From: Alphaproteobacteria bacterium
GTDB lineage: Bacteria; Pseudomonadota; Alphaproteobacteria; SMXS01
Assembly (NCBI GenBank): GCA_016124315.1
Contig: WGNW01000073.1
Location: forward strand, 1-64,000
Direction: 5' to 3'
Length of the DNA: 64,000 bases
The position numbers and the translations under genes were made by a program. This document shows, in pieces, positions 6,100 to 29,941 of this stretch (positions within the stretch are counted from its first letter, which is position 1; every line of letters starts with the position of its first letter). The notes under the pieces are model-generated. The model did not search any database. It saw nothing but the letters and a program-made list of their open reading frames with translations, and was not told where the DNA came from.

Positions 6100-7212
6100 T
6101 CAGTCTTTCGCGGCCGCAGAGACGGCGGCGCGCGAAGAGCGCGCGTCGCCGTTTGATGCCGGCTTGCCGGTGTTTTTCTTTTTGGCGGTGCGCACCGAGG
6201 CCGGGCGCGTCTTGCCGCCATCGGCGGGCAACGGATCGCCGGCGGCGCCGTTCCACAGGATGCCGGGATGCGGCACGCGGTAGTAGTTGCCGTCATCGTC
6301 GGGGTCGCCCGCGTGCCGGTCGGTGCAGACGATTTCGCGCTCGAAGCGGCCAATGGCACCTTTCAGATAATCCTCGATCAGTTCGACGCAGACCCAGCGG
6401 CGTTTGAGCCGCTCGGAGACCTCTCCGGTGACGCAGCTTCCCGCGAAGGGATCGAAAACAAGATCGCCCGGATCGCTCAGCATGCGAATGAAATACTCCG
6501 GCAGTTCGGCGGGATAACGCGCGGGATGCGCGGTGAGTCCCTGTTCCTGACAATAGCGCAGATAGAAGCTGTTGCTCTCGGTGTTCGGAATCGCGATCAG
6601 ATTGGGCGGAATGGCAGCGCCATTATCCTTTTTGAACTTGTCGCTGATGTCGTGGCCGGAAGGGCGTTTCTTGGCCTTGTACCCGTTTTCCAGCAGGTCG
6701 CGCATGGCCTGGCTGTAAGGCTGGAGCACGCGGCGATTGCTCGCCTTCGGCCACGGCGTTTTCGACAGCCACCATACCGTGTTGACGGCATCCTTCACGC
6801 GCACGCGGCGCACCGTCACCCATTCGGCGGGCGTCGGCAGCTTCGACGGATTCCACCAGTAGAAATCCTGCGCCAGATGGAAGCCGTATTCCTCGCACAG
6901 CATGATGAGGAGTTTGAAGTGATAGAGATGACGCGTCGGCATGCCTTGATTCCACGCGCCGCCAATGTCGATGACCGCGCTGCCGTGATCGGCCAGCACG
7001 CGGTGGAACTGCTCGGCGAACGGGCGGAACCAGTCTATGTATTCGTCCGCCGCCACGTTGCCGTACTCTTTCTTGCGCACGAGGCCGAAGGGCGGACTGG
7101 TCATGATGAGATCGACCGATCCGGCTTTCAGGCTCTTGAGGACATCGAGACTGTCGCCCTGCACCATGCGGCCCGCCTTGGTGCTGAAATAGGTTTCCGG
7201 TTTTTTCGTCAT
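6100..7212 (-). CDS. Site-specific DNA methyltransferase (beta class, N4-cytosine type motif)
   Basis: 370 residues. The catalytic motif IV TSPPF (38-42) comes before the AdoMet-binding motif I (FDPFAGSC, 253-260), which is the beta-class order. SPPF rather than DPPY favours N4-cytosine methylation, although N6-adenine cannot be excluded. Residues 110-240 between them are the likely target-recognition region. The last 50 residues are low-complexity and basic. The start codon overlaps the stop of the upstream nuclease gene (ATGA). It should protect host DNA from the co-encoded nuclease. Confidence 0.9.
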   Translation of the reverse strand: MTKKPETYFSTKAGRMVQGDSLDVLKSLKAGSVDLIMTSPPFGLVRKKEYGNVAADEYIDWFRPFAEQFHRVLADHGSAVIDIGGAWNQGMPTRHLYHFKLLIMLCEEYGFHLAQDFYWWNPSKLPTPAEWVTVRRVRVKDAVNTVWWLSKTPWPKASNRRVLQPYSQAMRDLLENGYKAKKRPSGHDISDKFKKDNGAAIPPNLIAIPNTESNSFYLRYCQEQGLTAHPARYPAELPEYFIRMLSDPGDLVFDPFAGSCVTGEVSERLKRRWVCVELIEDYLKGAIGRFEREIVCTDRHAGDPDDDGNYYRVPHPGILWNGAAGDPLPADGGKTRPASVRTAKKKNTGKPASNGDARSSRAAVSAAAKD

Positions 7213-8945: not shown

Positions 8946-10799
8946 CTACCGCCCCCGGTCGAGTCCTCTGTCGCGCCGCCGCCGTGGTGTCGGGTCGGTA
9001 TCCGGCGACGGATCGTCATCGCCACGCTCCCGGTCACGCCGGCGTCTGGCATTGCGTTCGGGCTCTTCCGACCGCTCCCGCGTGCGCTTGCGCCGCCGGA
9101 TTGTAACCTCCGCCTCGGGGGCCGGCTCCTGCGCCGTATCCCCCGATGCGCTGCCGCCGTCATCGCCGCCCCTGGATGCACGCTCGAACTCCGCCCCCAA
9201 CTGGATGGGTGCCTTCGCCCGCTCATTGAATGCGTCCGTATGCTTGCCTTCCTCCTGCACGGGATCACGCCCAGCGCCGCCGTCCTGCTCGCCCCGCCCG
9301 TCTGGCGCCGTCGCGGCACGGGTAAACGCCGCGCTGAGATCGATGGGTGCCTTCGCCGCCTCGTTGAATACATCCGTATGCGATCGGGACGGATCGGACG
9401 GCGTGAGCGCGCGGCCGTCGCGCTCACGTTCCTCGATTCGGTGGTCTTTCAGAAGCACCACTTCCAGTGATTTGCGCTCGCGCTGCTCGACCAGCTCCAG
9501 CGCCCGCAGCCGACGCTGCATGGCGAGGGCCTGTAGCTCCTGCTGCCGCTCGAACGTGGCCCGTTCGCGCTGCTGGCGCTCGGCCAGGTCCTTCTTCTGC
9601 GCGAGGAACGCCTTGAACCTTGTCGCGTCCCGGTACTGCTGAACCTTTTTCGTAATCAGTTCGACGCCGGTGACGCGGCCGAGGAAAGCCGCAAGACCTT
9701 TAGGGCGATGGGCGGCGCGCTCGATTTTGATGCGCCGGGCCTCCTGCAAATAGCCCTGCCGGAGTTGGCCCCTCGCTTCCTTCTGATGTTCGGCATGTTC
9801 ATGCCGGGCCTGCCGCTGGCGCTCGGATAGTGCCTTCGCCTCCTGCTCCACCGCCTGCCGGCGCGGCTGCTGGCGAAGCTGCAATTCAGCGCGGCGGTTG
9901 TTTTCGCGGGCTTCGCGCGCCGCCCGGGCCTCGCCGCTCGCGAACAATTCCATGGCGGCGCGGTGGGCGGATGCCAGCGCCCGCGCCTCGTCCACGCCTG
10001 GCAGGGAGTCGGTCGGGAATTCCTTTCCGAGGAAGGCGCGCACATCGCTGATGCGGACCTTTTTATCGTCGATCAGCCGGGGCAGCGATTTCATGACGCC
10101 GTTCAGATCGACCAGCAGGTAGTCCTTCCGGCCCGTGGCGAGGATATAGCCCATATCCTCCAGCTCGCGGACGAACGAACGCGCGGTATCGCGCCGGTCC
10201 CATGCCGCCGTCACCTGGCGCTTATGCTGCTCCAGCGAAAGCCCGCCCAGTTCCTCGGCCCGCTTGTCGTAAAGGCCCATCTGGTAGCCGCGACCCCGGC
10301 GGGCGCGGACCACGTCCTTGTTGTAGCCGTCGGGGAGCCGGAGGCCATGATCGCGCGCGAACTCGCGCGTGACGGTCATCAGCTTTTCATGGTCGAAGGC
10401 GACATGGCGGGCCTTGCCCTGTTCCACGTCGATGCGCGACCAGATGACATGGCAGTGCTCGCGCGGGATGCCCTGCCGGTCCTCCTTGACGTGGAACACG
10501 ACCGCGCGCGGCTGGCCAGCGAGCCCGAGCCGCTGCTCGGTGCGCTCGATGTAATCGAGATACTGCTCTCGCGTCAGCCGCCCCTGCCGCTGGTCGGGAT
10601 TGATCGAGAGGCTGTAGAGGTAATTGGTGCAGCGCGTCCGTGCATGCGCCTGCGCCTCCCATTCGGCGAAGGCGCCGTGCAGGTCGCGGGCGACGGCCCC
10701 GCGCACCTGCGCCACCTCCAGCCGCTCGTTGTCGTGCGCATTCAGCAAGTGCGTGGCGAGATCCTGCCCGTAGGCGCGCTGGCTGCCGAACGGGATCAC
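8946..10799 (-). CDS. Relaxase / mobilization nuclease (MobA/VirD2 type)
   Basis: 617 residues. The N-terminal 200 residues fit a relaxase domain: SQRAYGQDLATHLLN with a candidate catalytic tyrosine Y10, and the metal-binding motif EHCHVIWSRID near residue 117. The middle (about 280-450) is a long, charged coiled coil, and the tail is rich in acidic and arginine-rich low-complexity sequence, including two copies of an FNE.AKAPI segment (a tandem duplication around residues 475-535). It would nick oriT and lead the strand into the recipient. Its start overlaps the mobC stop (ATGA). Confidence 0.85.
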   Translation of the reverse strand: MIPFGSQRAYGQDLATHLLNAHDNERLEVAQVRGAVARDLHGAFAEWEAQAHARTRCTNYLYSLSINPDQRQGRLTREQYLDYIERTEQRLGLAGQPRAVVFHVKEDRQGIPREHCHVIWSRIDVEQGKARHVAFDHEKLMTVTREFARDHGLRLPDGYNKDVVRARRGRGYQMGLYDKRAEELGGLSLEQHKRQVTAAWDRRDTARSFVRELEDMGYILATGRKDYLLVDLNGVMKSLPRLIDDKKVRISDVRAFLGKEFPTDSLPGVDEARALASAHRAAMELFASGEARAAREARENNRRAELQLRQQPRRQAVEQEAKALSERQRQARHEHAEHQKEARGQLRQGYLQEARRIKIERAAHRPKGLAAFLGRVTGVELITKKVQQYRDATRFKAFLAQKKDLAERQQRERATFERQQELQALAMQRRLRALELVEQRERKSLEVVLLKDHRIEERERDGRALTPSDPSRSHTDVFNEAAKAPIDLSAAFTRAATAPDGRGEQDGGAGRDPVQEEGKHTDAFNERAKAPIQLGAEFERASRGGDDGGSASGDTAQEPAPEAEVTIRRRKRTRERSEEPERNARRRRDRERGDDDPSPDTDPTPRRRRDRGLDRGR

Positions 10800-11146
10800 G
10801 CCTCGCGCTCCATCAGCCGCAACAGCGCCACGCGGATCACGGTCAGTTCGTCACAGGCCGCCTTGATGGCCTCGGATGCTTCGGCGTCGTCGCCGGTGCG
10901 ATGGGCGGCGTCATCCAGAGCGTCGCGGATCGCGGCGGAGCGTCCGAGCAGATGCGCGAGCGTCTGTTTCTCGGCGTGCTGGGTGCGGGCGGCCCGCGGT
11001 GCATTCGCGCCAAAAATGCATTTCAGGATGTAGCCATTTTTGGAATAGCCCGACGCCTGCCACCCGCGCAGGAACGTCTCCCGCAAGTGACGGGGGATGC
11101 GGATGGAGATAGGAGCGTCGCGCTCGTTGCCAGTTTTCTTTTCCAT
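10796..11146 (-). CDS. MobC-like relaxosome accessory protein
   Basis: 116 residues. The N-terminal part (ISIRIPRHLRETFLRGW) fits a ribbon-helix-helix DNA-binding element, and the rest is helical. Proteins of this size directly upstream of, and overlapping, a relaxase gene are typically MobC-family factors that bind oriT and help the relaxase. The gene begins 45 bp from the hairpin array at 11191-11621, consistent with binding there. Confidence 0.75.
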   Translation of the reverse strand: MEKKTGNERDAPISIRIPRHLRETFLRGWQASGYSKNGYILKCIFGANAPRAARTQHAEKQTLAHLLGRSAAIRDALDDAAHRTGDDAEASEAIKAACDELTVIRVALLRLMEREA

Positions 11147-11190
11147 TCGCCAAAGCTAGGGCGCGGTAGTACCAGCCGCCTCGCGCCAAC

Positions 11191-11621
11191 CTCGCGCGCG
11201 AGCTTCGCGGGTTCCGGGGCCGCGCGTGCCCCGGTCGATGGGTGCCAAGGGAGAGCGAAGTCTCCCTTGCGGCATTGCCGCGTCATCGCCCACCGGGCGA
11301 TGGCGGTCGCGGGTCCCGGGGCGCGATGAGCCCCGGACGCCGGTTACAAGGGGCTGCGGTGGAGCCCTTTGTTTGATGGGGTCAGGGGAGAGCCGAAGTC
11401 TCCCCGACGCGCTGTAGAGCGCGTAATGCGCAACGGTACACGTTGCGCTCGGCCGGCATGGGCTCGATGCCCATGAGCGATTTGCGTCCGGCCGATCCAA
11501 CCCCTTAGCGGACGCGTCGCCAAACGGCGCGTGCGCTTAGGGGTTGCCGCAGGGGGTCGCACGGGGGACGCGCAGTCCCCCCGCAAGGTGCGCGCGGGAT
11601 GGTAATACCGCGCACACCTTG
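11191..11621. repeat. Array of about thirteen consecutive inverted repeats; candidate oriT region
   Basis: Perfect or near-perfect stems follow one another: palindrome 11191-11202; 11214-11234; 11247-11268; 11284-11302; 11316-11336; 11347-11371 (one mismatch); 11385-11405; 11407-11424; 11428-11448; nested pair 11449-11495 with 11457-11475 inside; 11498-11546 (12 of 13); 11563-11581; 11584-11621 (13 of 14). Loops of the 11247 and 11385 hairpins are related (gcgaag, gccgaag). The array starts 45 bp upstream of mobC, the usual place for oriT. No canonical nic sequence is recognised. The remaining 11622-11894 has no gene. Confidence 0.7.
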
Positions 11622-11894
11622 TACCCGTCGCTAATCTATCGGTTGACCCCATACTTTGATTGTACGGGAAAGTGCCGGAAGACGGTTATGAGCGGCGTCA
11701 CAATCGCGGGCCGCTTGTGATGTGCACCGCGAAGAGTATCGCGAGGTTCGCACGAGGAAAAGCGGAAAACCTCTTCTCCATCTTTGCGTTGTCGCCCGAC
11801 CAAATCATCAAGCTCCCTTGTAATGAGCATTCCAATTTTGTGATGCACATTCCAGAGCGAAACGGAGTCGGGCGGAGCGAAGCGGAGAACCCCG

Positions 11895-12608
11895 ATGTCC
11901 GACACCAACAATCCTGCCTTCCGTCCGACGCGCGAGACTTACGATCCGTTGCAGCAGGCATACGAGAATCTCAACCGCGCGCTGTTCGAGAATACCCTTC
12001 CCAACTGCCTTATCACCCTGCAACGCAGCAAGCGCAGCTACGGGTATTTCTGCGGCGATCGGTTCGCCCGGCCCGACGGGCAGCTCACCGACGAGATCGC
12101 CCTGAACCCCTCCCACTTCCGCGACCGGCCCCAGGAGGAAGTGCTCGCCACCCTCGCGCACGAGATGGTGCATCTGTGGCAGCACCATTTCGGCAAGCCG
12201 GGCCGGGGGCGTTATCACAACAGCGAATGGGCCGAGAAGATGATGGCCATCGGCCTTCATCCGTCCGCCACGGGCAAGGAAGGCGGCGCGGAGACCGGCG
12301 ATGTCATGGACCATTATATCGTCGCCGACGGCCCGTTCGAGCGTACCGTAAAGAAGATGCTGGCCAAGGGCTTCTCGCTCTCATGGACCGAAGAGCCCGA
12401 CCGCAGCCTCGATGCCTTGAGAGAGGCAAACGGAGAGAACCGGAGCGGCAAGCGCGTGCGCTATGTCTGCCCCTACGGCGACCAGAAGGCGTGGGCCAAG
12501 CACGAGGCCAAGCTCGTCTGCGGCGAGCATATGGAGCCGATGGTCCCCCACCAGCCGACGCCGCGCGGCTATATCGACATAACGCCGACAGCGGACGACG
12601 AGGAATAA
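11895..12608 (+). CDS. SprT-like zinc metalloprotein
   Basis: 237 residues. An SprT-like domain is visible: a helical start, then HEMVHLWQHHFG with the HExxH zinc motif at 89-93 and further histidines in the following helix. The C-terminal part has Cys residues (VRYVCPYGD, KLVCGEHM) spaced like a small zinc-binding module. SprT-like proteins on conjugative elements are widespread; their role is unknown, possibly proteolysis of DNA-bound proteins during entry. The gene is transcribed away from mobC, across the hairpin array. A rho-independent terminator follows. Confidence 0.85.
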   Translation: MSDTNNPAFRPTRETYDPLQQAYENLNRALFENTLPNCLITLQRSKRSYGYFCGDRFARPDGQLTDEIALNPSHFRDRPQEEVLATLAHEMVHLWQHHFGKPGRGRYHNSEWAEKMMAIGLHPSATGKEGGAETGDVMDHYIVADGPFERTVKKMLAKGFSLSWTEEPDRSLDALREANGENRSGKRVRYVCPYGDQKAWAKHEAKLVCGEHMEPMVPHQPTPRGYIDITPTADDEE

Positions 12609-13455: not shown

Positions 13456-13921
13456 GGGACTTCTCCATTTGTTGCGGGCTGGCTCATTCCAGCCGTACCC
13501 GCCCGGCAGCGGGCCGCCGGGGACGTGTCCGCCAACACGGGAGGCCCGAAGGGCCGAAGGGAGCGGGCCGGCGCAGGACACGCCGCCGAAGGCATCCCCG
13601 CCGGACTGCTAAGGGTATTGGGTCGAAGGCTGGATGAATAAGCAGCCCCGCGTGACAAGGGGAAAGGAAGCCCTGACCGATGAACCCGACAAGACACCTG
13701 CCCGCCTATTGGCGGCATCATCCAAGCGGCGACTGAACAGACGCTGCGCAGCGTCACGGCAGGCAGGACCACCGACCGCATCGCCGGGGCCGAAAGCAGG
13801 ACGGAGTTTCGGGATTTGCGAACGAAGTGGCGGACGCGAGGTCTGCGCGAGGAATTGCAGGGCACGCATGGACGACATGAACCGCGTACCGCCAATGAAG
13901 ACGGGCAAACGGAGATGCGGC
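13456..13921. other. Intergenic region upstream of the coupling-protein gene
   Basis: 466 bp between divergent genes. The frame of the coupling protein is open back to 13634, but codon use before 13922 is unlike the gene and no conserved residues are seen. A GGCCC-gaa-GGGCC hairpin lies near 13543-13555. Nothing else is recognised. Confidence 0.4.
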
Positions 13922-15472
13922 ATGAACGCGTTTTTCGAGGACTTCACCCGCGACATACCGCGCGGCCTGAGCACGCGCTATCTAAAGCAGCAAACGGCGC
14001 CGCAGGCGCGCTGGCAGTCGCCGGATGTCATATTCGAGCGCCGCGTTCTCGAATACGACCCGCGCAATCCCGGCGGCAAAATCCTCATAGGATCGCTCGG
14101 CCCCAAGCTCGTCGGCATCGAAGACAACCGGCACGTCCTGACCGTCGCCGGATCGCGCGCCGGTAAATCCGTCACGCTCATCAACAACCTGCTCTTCTAT
14201 CGTGGCAGCGTGCTCGCCACGGACCCGAAGGCCGAGCTGGCCAACATCACCGCCGCCCGGCGCGCGGCGCTGGGGCAGCAGGTCCATGTCCTCGATCCCT
14301 TCGAGTACACGTCGCCGCGCATCGCGCATCTGCGCAAATCCTATAACCCGATGGCGGTCCTCAAACCCGACAGCCAAACCATCATCGAGGATGCGGGCAT
14401 GATCGCCGATGCGCTTGTCGTGCGCAGCGGCAACGAGAAAGACCCGCATTGGGATGAAAGCGCGAAGAACTTCATCGAAGGCGTGATCCTGCATGTGGCG
14501 ACGGACGCCCGTTACGAGGGCCGCCGCAACCTGCTCACCGTGCGCGACCTGATCCGCACGGCGCTGGCGCAGGAGCCCGCGTCGCTCGTCGGCGAGGACG
14601 AAGAGCCGCTGTTTCTTCTCGAAAAGGAGATTCTGCAAAACGCTGCCCGGTTCGCGAAAAACCTCAACACCGAAGACCTCGCGGGAGCGCTCGAAGGCGC
14701 GGCCCGCGACTTCTATGAAAAAGGCGCGAACGAGCGTGCGGGCGTGCTCTCGACCGTGCGCCGCCATACGAAGTTCCTCGATTACACCGCCATGCGCCGC
14801 GTGCTCGCGGGCCATGATTTCGATCTCGCGGATTTGAAGCGCGATCCGAAGGGCGTGAGCGTCTATCTCTGCCTACCCGCCAGCCGCATGGGGCTTTGTA
14901 ACCGCTGGCTGCGCATATTCATCAACCAGCTATTGGATGCGATGGAGCGCGATAAATCAGCCCCGCCCGCACCCGTTCTGGTTTGTCTCGATGAATTCCC
15001 CGTGCTTGGTCATATGCGGCAGTTAGAGGACGCCGCCGGGCAGATCGCCTCGTTCGGCGTCAAGCTGTGGGTCGTTCTGCAGGACTGGGGCCAGGGCAAA
15101 GCGCTTTACAAGGAGCGCTGGGAAACCTTCGCCGGCAATGCCGGCATCCTCCAGTTCTTCGGCAACAACGATTTAGAGACGCTGGAATATGTCTCGCGGC
15201 GTCTCGGCAAGACGCGCATCGAAGTGGCGCGTCAGGGAGAGGTCGCGCCCGAACAGGCGCAATCGGGGCTGTCGGGGCGCAATAGCGCGATGGAGATGCA
15301 CGACCTGCTGGCGCCGGACGAAGTGAGCCGTCATTTCTCGCGAAGCGACCGGCTCAGGCGGCAGCTCGTGATCTGGGCCGGATATGATCCGATGATCCTG
15401 CAACGCGTGGAGTATTTCGATCAGGCAGGGCCGCATCGCGGCGTGTTCAAAGGTACTTATGCGCCAGAATGA
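13922..15472 (+). CDS. VirD4/TraG-type type IV coupling protein
   Basis: 516 residues from the chosen ATG (GGAG 7 bases upstream). Walker A AGSRAGKS lies at 76-83 and Walker B VLVCLDEFPVLG near residue 357. Other typical features are ATDPKAELANIT after Walker A and a helical all-alpha segment between the two. The N-terminal membrane segments of VirD4 are absent, so this is a short, soluble-type coupling protein, as in several ICE families. It would bring the relaxase-DNA complex to a type IV secretion channel, which is not encoded in the window. Confidence 0.88.
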   Translation: MNAFFEDFTRDIPRGLSTRYLKQQTAPQARWQSPDVIFERRVLEYDPRNPGGKILIGSLGPKLVGIEDNRHVLTVAGSRAGKSVTLINNLLFYRGSVLATDPKAELANITAARRAALGQQVHVLDPFEYTSPRIAHLRKSYNPMAVLKPDSQTIIEDAGMIADALVVRSGNEKDPHWDESAKNFIEGVILHVATDARYEGRRNLLTVRDLIRTALAQEPASLVGEDEEPLFLLEKEILQNAARFAKNLNTEDLAGALEGAARDFYEKGANERAGVLSTVRRHTKFLDYTAMRRVLAGHDFDLADLKRDPKGVSVYLCLPASRMGLCNRWLRIFINQLLDAMERDKSAPPAPVLVCLDEFPVLGHMRQLEDAAGQIASFGVKLWVVLQDWGQGKALYKERWETFAGNAGILQFFGNNDLETLEYVSRRLGKTRIEVARQGEVAPEQAQSGLSGRNSAMEMHDLLAPDEVSRHFSRSDRLRRQLVIWAGYDPMILQRVEYFDQAGPHRGVFKGTYAPE

Positions 15473-23860: not shown

Positions 23861-24076
23861 CTATCCCTCGCGCATGCGGTCAAGCAAACTCGGCTCCAGA
23901 AACCGCCCGACGGCGGTACGCGCGGCCTTCGGGCGGGCATCGTCGATCAGCGCGAACAAGGCCGGTTGGTCCGGCCTTGCCGCCTTCCACGCCGCGATCT
24001 GGGCACGGCGCATTTCCAGAATGTCGCGCCAGCGGTAGGCGCGACCGCCGATAACGATGGTGTCGGGGCGACTCAT
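23861..24076 (-). CDS. Hypothetical protein in ardC operon (71 aa)
   Basis: 71 residues from an ATG that overlaps the ardC stop by 4 bases (ATGA). Begins MSRPDTIVIGGRAYRWRDIL; the remainder is a basic helical segment (MRRAQIAAWKAAR) and a C-terminus ending LDRMREG. No family recognised. The tight coupling to ardC suggests a shared role early after transfer. Confidence 0.6.
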   Translation of the reverse strand: MSRPDTIVIGGRAYRWRDILEMRRAQIAAWKAARPDQPALFALIDDARPKAARTAVGRFLEPSLLDRMREG

Positions 24077-25002
24077 TCCGCCGCCTCCTGCACCGCGCCC
24101 GGCTGCAAGCCGTGCAGATAATCGGCGGCGCGCTGCGCATGGGCGGCGGCGCTGAAGATGGCCCGCTTGTCGCCCTTCAGCACCTTGAGCCAAGAGGCGA
24201 TATAGGACGCGTGGTCCTCACGCGGCTCCGGCGTCAGATCGAGGTCGGCAGACAGGAAGGCCGAGCCGAGTTCGGCGACAAGTTCTTCCATCGCGTAGCC
24301 TTCATCGCCCCAGCGCTTGCGCCCGAATTCGCGCTCAAGGCGTTTCGGGTGGCGCGTCCAGTGGGTGATCTCGTGCGCCAGCGTGGCGTAATAGCTTTCC
24401 GCGTCCTGAAATGTCTCGAAGGGCGGCATCTGCACGCGGTCGTCGGCCATCGCATAGTAAGCCTGATTGCCGCCGTGCTTGATGGCGGCACCCGTCGCGG
24501 CAAAGAACGTCTCCGCATGCTCGATGCGCGGGACGCTCTCAAGCCGGGGTGCGGGCTTGGCGTAGAAATGTTCGGGCAAGCCGTCGATCTGCTCGACGTT
24601 GAACACGGTATCTCCCTTCATAAAGGGAATGTCGCGCTCTACCTCGCCGCCGCTGTCGCCGTCGATCTCGGTGCGCGTGATCTTCGACGCATAAACGACA
24701 AGGCTGCCCTTCTCGCCCTTGCGGACACAGGCGTTCAATTCCAGCGCCTGCTTGAACGTCAGCCACATCGGCGCGGCGTAGCCTTTGGCCATCGCTTCGG
24801 CCCAAAGCATCAGCACATTGATGCCCCGGTAAGGGATGCCGTTGCCGCGCAGGGGCCGCGTGATTCGCCCTGCTGCGTGTTCGGCGTTCCAAGGCTTGAA
24901 CCAAGGACGGACTCCCTGCTCAAGTTCACTGACAATCCGGGCGGTGATCCGCTCATAAACATCTGCTTTCACTTTCTTCCTCCTAATCTTTGGTTTGCGC
25001 AT
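24073..25002 (-). CDS. ardC: ArdC-like antirestriction protein
   Basis: 309 residues. The N-terminal ArdC domain is recognisable (VYERITARIVSELEQG, PWFKPWNA, RPLRGNGIPYRGINVLML, split within 15-66). The C-terminal zincin-like domain carries HEITH (210-214), with a downstream acidic helix YAMEELVAELGSAFL (236-250) for the third zinc ligand. ArdC proteins bind single-stranded DNA and shield incoming conjugative DNA from restriction. Here it heads a three-gene minus-strand operon. It is notable that the same element also carries restriction enzymes. Confidence 0.88.
   Translation of the reverse strand: MRKPKIRRKKVKADVYERITARIVSELEQGVRPWFKPWNAEHAAGRITRPLRGNGIPYRGINVLMLWAEAMAKGYAAPMWLTFKQALELNACVRKGEKGSLVVYASKITRTEIDGDSGGEVERDIPFMKGDTVFNVEQIDGLPEHFYAKPAPRLESVPRIEHAETFFAATGAAIKHGGNQAYYAMADDRVQMPPFETFQDAESYYATLAHEITHWTRHPKRLEREFGRKRWGDEGYAMEELVAELGSAFLSADLDLTPEPREDHASYIASWLKVLKGDKRAIFSAAAHAQRAADYLHGLQPGAVQEAAE

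Positions 25003-28299: not shown

Positions 28300-29941
<1,642 letters not shown>

Follow-up and report, generated by a model that had tools for sequence, protein, structure and literature searches.

The window analysed here is a stretch of 64,000 nucleotides of alphaproteobacterial DNA. On its plus strand, thirteen hairpins form an array of about 430 bases (11214-11621) that adjoins DNA-transfer genes. It is flanked by a mobC-like gene and its relaxase gene, both on the minus strand, and by a SprT-like gene on the plus strand. The mobC-like gene (10796..11146, minus) has no Pfam or NCBIfam match and was named from its position and homologues; the relaxase gene (8946..10799, minus) matches PF03432, the SprT-like metalloprotease is encoded at 11895..12608 (plus) and a T4SS coupling protein (T4CP) at 13634..15472 (plus). 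To the left lies restriction and defence cargo, with HNH, TIR and Mrr genes and an N6/N4 DNA methylase gene (6100..7212, minus, the same strand as mobC). To the right are a gene for an ArdC anti-restriction protein, which reads toward the array (24073..25002, minus), and a gene for a large serine recombinase, the probable integrase of the element (28300..29907, plus). This gene content resembles that of an integrative mobilizable element. Immediately past the serine recombinase gene, at about 30 kb, the third-position GC of the ORFs rises from about 0.78 to 0.95, which suggests that the chromosome resumes there and that this is the probable end of the element.

The sequence-only reading had claimed thirteen inverted repeats for 11191-11621; this was confirmed, the hairpins lying within 11214-11621. 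An extra weak hairpin is present to the left of the array (11180-11202). Perfect stems of at least 7 bp numbered 9 in 11191-11621, compared with a mean of 0.56 and a maximum of 4 in 300 dinucleotide shuffles, and perfect stems of at least 6 bp numbered 10, compared with 1.69 in dinucleotide shuffles. Hairpin density was 10 in the 450-bp stretch of the array versus a mean of 0.79 per 450 bp over the 64-kb window. Folding of the single strand in both orientations, a check that had been proposed with that claim, gave energies below those of dinucleotide shuffles on plus and on minus: for 11150-11700, RNA fold energy was 8.2 sd (plus) and 6.2 sd (minus) below the shuffles, and DNA fold energy 9.5 sd (plus) and 8.4 sd (minus) below them.

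Homologous arrays keep the order of the whole array (11214..11621, plus being the inferred folding strand). Hairpin 1 (11214-11234) is followed by hairpin 2 (11246..11269, plus), CAAGGGAGA-GCGAAG-TCTCCCTTG, whose S. meliloti counterpart (L004:8966-8994) has a GCCGAAG loop. The relatedness of these two loops, noticed in the initial reading, is real, and both recur across the whole array family. Hairpins 3 (about 11269-11281), 4 (11284-11302) and 5 (11316-11336) precede hairpin 6 (11346..11372, plus; ACAAGGGGC..GCCCTTTGT), which carries a conserved G.T wobble; its counterpart has the G.T in most loci, and the wobble pair is G.T in 9 of the 10 rows of a ten-sequence alignment. Hairpin A (11385..11405, plus; GGGGAGA-GCCGAAG-TCTCCCC) is helix 5 of the covariation test described below, and a further hairpin (11407-11424) lies between it and hairpin B (11428..11448, plus; GCGCAACG..CGTTGCGC; helix 6). 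Hairpin C (11449..11495, plus; helices 7-8) has two storeys, with an inner stem at 11457-11475 and a GGGCTCGATGCCC apex, in which the ten-sequence covariation test found compensatory changes at all five pairs. The long stem of hairpin D (11498..11546, plus; AACCCCTTAG..CTTAGGGGTT), present in the mobC-linked form only, occurs as AACCCC/GGGGTT, CATCCG/CGGATG and TCTCCC/GGGAGA in different alignment rows. Hairpin E (11563..11581, plus; GGGGGAC..GTCCCCC; helix 9) and the terminal hairpin F (11584..11621, plus; CAAGGTG..GGTAATACC..CACCTTG) belong to covariance model R1; F, for which covariation was assessed with 60 sequences, is the most conserved part of the array. The window copy of hairpin F (11584-11621) has an additional 5-nt insertion (GCGCGGgatGG) that is absent from the other aligned form 1 copies.

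The first relative, found by blastn, was in an S. meliloti pSymB island (CP140937) with the gene order of the window; its array contains most window hairpins in matching order, with different stem sequences. A class-wide DNA search gave three further relatives. Covariance model R1, which represents the last two hairpins of the array, matched 11 of 385 genomes of the class, and a 25-base hairpin F pattern matched at least 119 stretches in genome_contigs and 4 in viral_contigs, nearly all of them backed by R1. By DNA pattern and covariance model, the family numbers at least about 120 distinct loci, a few loci or contigs being entered under two records. The hosts are mostly Alphaproteobacteria, and also Pseudomonas, Nitrosomonas/Nitrosospira, Nitrospirales and others, some of which are metagenome bins that may be mis-binned. 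A protein search for MobC in genome_contigs gave no match, and the relatives came by DNA patterns. Some weak BLAST matches to single hairpins (L022, L023, L024, L025 and L028) matched neither the window mob genes nor R1 and were dropped; another such match, L026, later matched R1. Rfam gave no match at threshold for the window array or the relatives tested, and no paper describing the array was found in searches of open-licence literature. The array is a new, widespread family that is real, conserved and without Rfam match at threshold, with a putative function.

The initial reading had made its case depend on conservation of the stems in relatives; the stems proved to be conserved and to covary. 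In A7, an alignment of ten sequences that was not fitted to structure, pairing holds in 93.3% of cells, and compensation, with changes on both sides, is seen at 20 of 60 pairs, versus 7.5 in shuffles, 0 of 500 of which reached 20. With the partner slid by one column, pairing was 44-46%, a control that flatters the result because the structure came partly from the alignment's consensus. For hairpin F, 60 sequences gave 78 compensated cells versus 27, with pair splits such as CG:29/UA:29 and GC:33/UA:27. Taken by itself, hairpin F might also be a palindrome of double-stranded DNA; the differing stems of hairpins A-E argue for folding.

Single non-Watson-Crick stem positions, read on the plus strand, were G.T in 42 cases versus A.C in 9, a ratio that overstates independence, many G.T positions representing one homologous pair. 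For this reason the loop count is a stronger strand sign than the G.T count: GA(A/T) purine loops numbered 129 on plus versus 9 on minus. The RNAalifold consensus fold had an energy of -78 kcal/mol on plus versus -60 kcal/mol on minus. These signs say that the plus strand, opposite to the mobC mRNA, is the folding strand.

The family occurs in two forms. In form 1, hairpin F ends CACACCTTGTAC or -TGC and hairpin D is usually present. Form 1 lies just upstream of mobC-relaxase in 14 of 14 complete copies having flanking DNA, with T4CP on its right side wherever the contig reaches; mobC-linked arrays are always directly upstream of mobC-relaxase (window, Sinorhizobium, Pseudomonas, small plasmids). 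Related arrays occupy the same place in the small plasmids pTF4.1 of A. ferrooxidans, pSREG01 of Sphingopyxis and pcai42B of Frigidibacter, the last being weak by the model (13.8 bits) and clear by eye, and Bradyrhizobium pCC829_1 has an array upstream of its relaxase. The P. veronii array L115 (NZ_JYLL01000016, 5714-5921) is cut by the contig end; only its last hairpins match L094, and from mid-hairpin D leftward the two have nothing in common, as if the array had been broken there. SprT was found in only 5 of the 14 mobC-linked copies; its absence from the other 9 led us to reject the array as a SprT leader. An attP of the serine recombinase was also rejected, as the recombinase gene is far from the array or not found in most copies.

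In form 2, hairpin F ends CTTGCG and the array borders defence cargo in integrative elements. The array, first noticed upstream of mobC, is not private to that gene, as about 100 listed copies have defence cargo, T4CP or recombinase genes as neighbours instead. Among the matches listed, the left gene is on minus in 11 of 13 mobC-linked copies and in 65 of 100 form 2 copies, and on plus in 35 of the 100. Twenty-four of the 65 minus-strand left genes of form 2 are methylases of four clusters (MmeI-type 9, HsdM 8, C5 4, N6/N4 3); one further left gene is a single Eco57I-type, and others encode ArdA, Fic, OLD-like, reverse transcriptase, TIR, AIPR and ABC-3C proteins. No DNA methylase was found among ten plus-strand left genes of form 2 that were scanned. 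The right side of form 2 has genes for serine recombinases and coupling proteins, most of them on plus; when the contig also carries the relaxase gene, this is mostly found 5-21 kb to the left, on plus. L045 and L046 are intermediates, with form 2-like arrays adjoining mobC-relaxase. The array may be directly upstream of ArdA (L064, L065), of ArdC (L164) or of methylases. The left cargo of form 2 is diverse (L051, L103, L117, L063, L133, L055 and others), with MmeI, HsdM, C5 methylase, OLD-like, TIR, SAVED, reverse transcriptase and Fic.

Anti-defence genes and methylases of the leading region are exclusively on the T-strand (Samuel et al., PMC11541004). Relative to the array set on plus, ArdC was on minus in 19 of 19 cases (same contig within about 32 kb, or one fetched locus) and ArdA in 9 of 9; contigs not tied to the array by an R1 match (e.g. 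L058, L077, L118) and G436, where the Ard gene is about 90 kb from the array, were left out of these counts. The combined 28 of 28 mappable cases on minus do not amount to 28 independent tests, since Ard and methylase orientations are inherited with synteny. Methylase clusters were on minus in 30 of 31 cases, against a general minus bias of about 62% among genes neighbouring the array. ArdC is mostly to the right of the array in form 1 and mostly to the left in form 2, with its strand unchanged. From these gene orientations and the leading-region rule (PMC11541004), rather than from a nick map, we infer that plus is the T-strand.

A candidate -10 box (TACAAT on minus, 11659..11664) would mark a leftward promoter, probably for mobC-relaxase, and a -10-like motif is present about 29-36 nt right of hairpin F in most mobC-linked copies (z 4.2, minus only). 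A flank scan found no sigma-70 promoter beside defence-linked arrays, and no -35/-10 was seen by eye inside the hairpins. Both forms conserve a short TTA/TAA motif, 9-12 nt to the right of the hairpin F arm; the array showed no recognisable match to an established nic consensus. The F apex, GGTANTACC or TGTANTACA, recurs to the right of F as separate 9-bp palindromes (e.g. L056, L144, L048; first 150 nt), of which 122 near windows contained 29 and 285 control windows 1; in 28 of 29 cases the flavour agreed with that of the F apex at the locus. This recurrence beside F with matching flavour suggests that one sequence-specific protein probably reads both hairpin F and the nearby palindromes in double-stranded DNA. 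Hairpin F would then probably also have a double-stranded role.

Of the possibilities first raised from the sequence, which are partly supported, the best fit is a putative single-strand origin or promoter that would act on incoming DNA, since folding is on the predicted transferred strand. A fixed strand sense combined with a varying relaxase position is expected of an sso/ssi site, and a fixed strand sense with early-needed genes directly downstream on minus looks like a single-strand promoter or priming site. The reading that we tentatively prefer, and which may well be right, is that the non-coding array acts in a folded, single-stranded DNA form on the plus strand, the one transferred, as a promoter or primer site similar to Frpo, ssi or sso, perhaps fused to oriT. 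During or after conjugative transfer, the plus strand would fold into a row of hairpins with purine loops of the GNA/GNNA type, and the folded strand would be recognised by a polymerase, a primase or a protein of the element. Recognition would start an RNA leftward from the F end, which would serve as primer for the complementary strand and/or allow the minus-strand genes to the left to be expressed early: mobC-relaxase in the window and methylases or ArdA/ArdC elsewhere. In mobC-adjoining copies, hairpin F and the right flank may also belong to oriT. We infer both that the fold is one of DNA rather than RNA and that a promoter or primer step is involved. Counting against this reading are the missing sigma-70 signal at defence-linked arrays and the absence of a recognised -10/-35 within F, the limited independence of the wobble and orientation counts, and the probable double-stranded role of F.

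Several known systems resemble the array. The Frpo/ssi single-stranded DNA promoters of F-type plasmids (PMC11541004, PMC9849209) fold on the transferred strand, as the array is predicted to do, and precede anti-restriction or methylase genes that this strand encodes, and the array sits before ArdA, ArdC or methylases as Frpo sits before ssb; however, Frpo has its -35/-10 in a hairpin duplex, whereas the array has ten to thirteen short GC-rich hairpins and no recognised -35/-10. The sso, for example sso1 of ICEBs1 (PMC4595007), is likewise hairpin-rich, strand-specific and carried by integrative mobile elements; sso1 has three stem-loops and the array thirteen, and the two are likened by description, not by sequence. 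The array shares with sso conserved hairpins in the single-stranded form and a fixed strand sense, which holds relative to ArdA/ArdC at all mappable loci. The STAXI motif (Weinberg 2010, PMC2864571, RF01728) also has tandem structured units near antirestriction and integrase genes, and the DNA-or-RNA question was raised there too (PMC2864571); it consists of repeated pseudoknots with UUCG loops in Enterobacteriales, whereas the array has no Rfam match at threshold.

It is unlikely that the array is a structured non-coding RNA made from the plus strand, divergent from mobC, such as a regulator of transfer or of defence cargo. G.U wobbles and GNRA/GNNA-like loops on plus and a stable fold would agree with such an RNA, as would a weak Rfam match to sbcD RNA (RF01757; 11400-11545 plus, 26.4 bits, E 0.011), which is below the cut-off of 40. 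However, sbcD RNA was described from Burkholderiales and was not matched at threshold in array relatives, which are without any Rfam match at threshold; there is no plus promoter signal left of the array (z 1.4 and -2.2) and no U run after hairpin F, and in the mobC form the leftward promoter reads antisense through the array. That leftward -10 box right of F, together with the minus-strand left genes (11/13 and 65/100 copies among the matches listed), would suit a structured 5' leader of a leftward mRNA (mobC-relaxase or methylase cargo), acting for example in antitermination or translational control. Yet wobbles and loop types mark plus, not minus, as the folding strand, and the left gene is on plus in 35 of 100 defence-linked copies (matches listed); as plus folds while the mobC transcript is minus, a leader-RNA role is very improbable.

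An extended oriT, also proposed in the sequence-only reading, fits the copies that adjoin mobC-relaxase, including those of 4-28 kb mobilizable plasmids, and is hard to reconcile with the many copies that are 5-21 kb from an oppositely reading relaxase. Here F would be the inverted repeat beside nic, cleavage of plus would occur some 10 nt past F on its right side, and the remaining hairpins would bind relaxosome proteins or serve termination. The position upstream of mobC and/or relaxase in pTF4.1, pcai42B, pSREG01 and pCC829_1, the high conservation of hairpin F and the TTA/TAA motif right of its arm in both forms agree with this, and the mobC-linked array resembles the oriT of RP4 or RSF1010 in preceding mobC-relaxase and in having a conserved inverted repeat at its edge. 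In an ordinary oriT of such mobilizable plasmids, the repeats number one to three and nic has been mapped. Thirteen hairpins are more than an oriT needs, no established nic consensus was recognised, and many array copies are far from any relaxase: adjacency to relaxase/mobC, present in the mobC-linked form and the small plasmids, is absent in the defence-linked form, whose nearest same-contig relaxase is mostly 5-21 kb off and in opposite reading. An extended oriT is quite unlikely as an account of the array; an oriT role is attractive for form 1, where oriT and single-strand initiation may both be present.

It is possible, though we hold this with less confidence, that the array represents a previously undescribed class of initiation element activated by single-stranded DNA, modular with about ten hairpins. 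Within integrative mobilizable elements, in Alphaproteobacteria and in other bacteria, it would switch on methylase and anti-restriction genes from the strand that enters. For ICEs, virtually nothing was known, as of 2015, about the first RNA or primer on incoming single-stranded DNA (PMC4595007). Outside the F family this step is mostly unexplained, and the array may bear on it. The array is abundant, a simple covariance model suffices to recognise it, and its position shows where mobile defence cargo has its edge; as form 2 arrays border very diverse defence cargo, they could be used to probe for mobile defence islands. If the proposed role is true, the array would be a handle on early methylase and anti-restriction expression during establishment, and a marker for finding such mobile elements.
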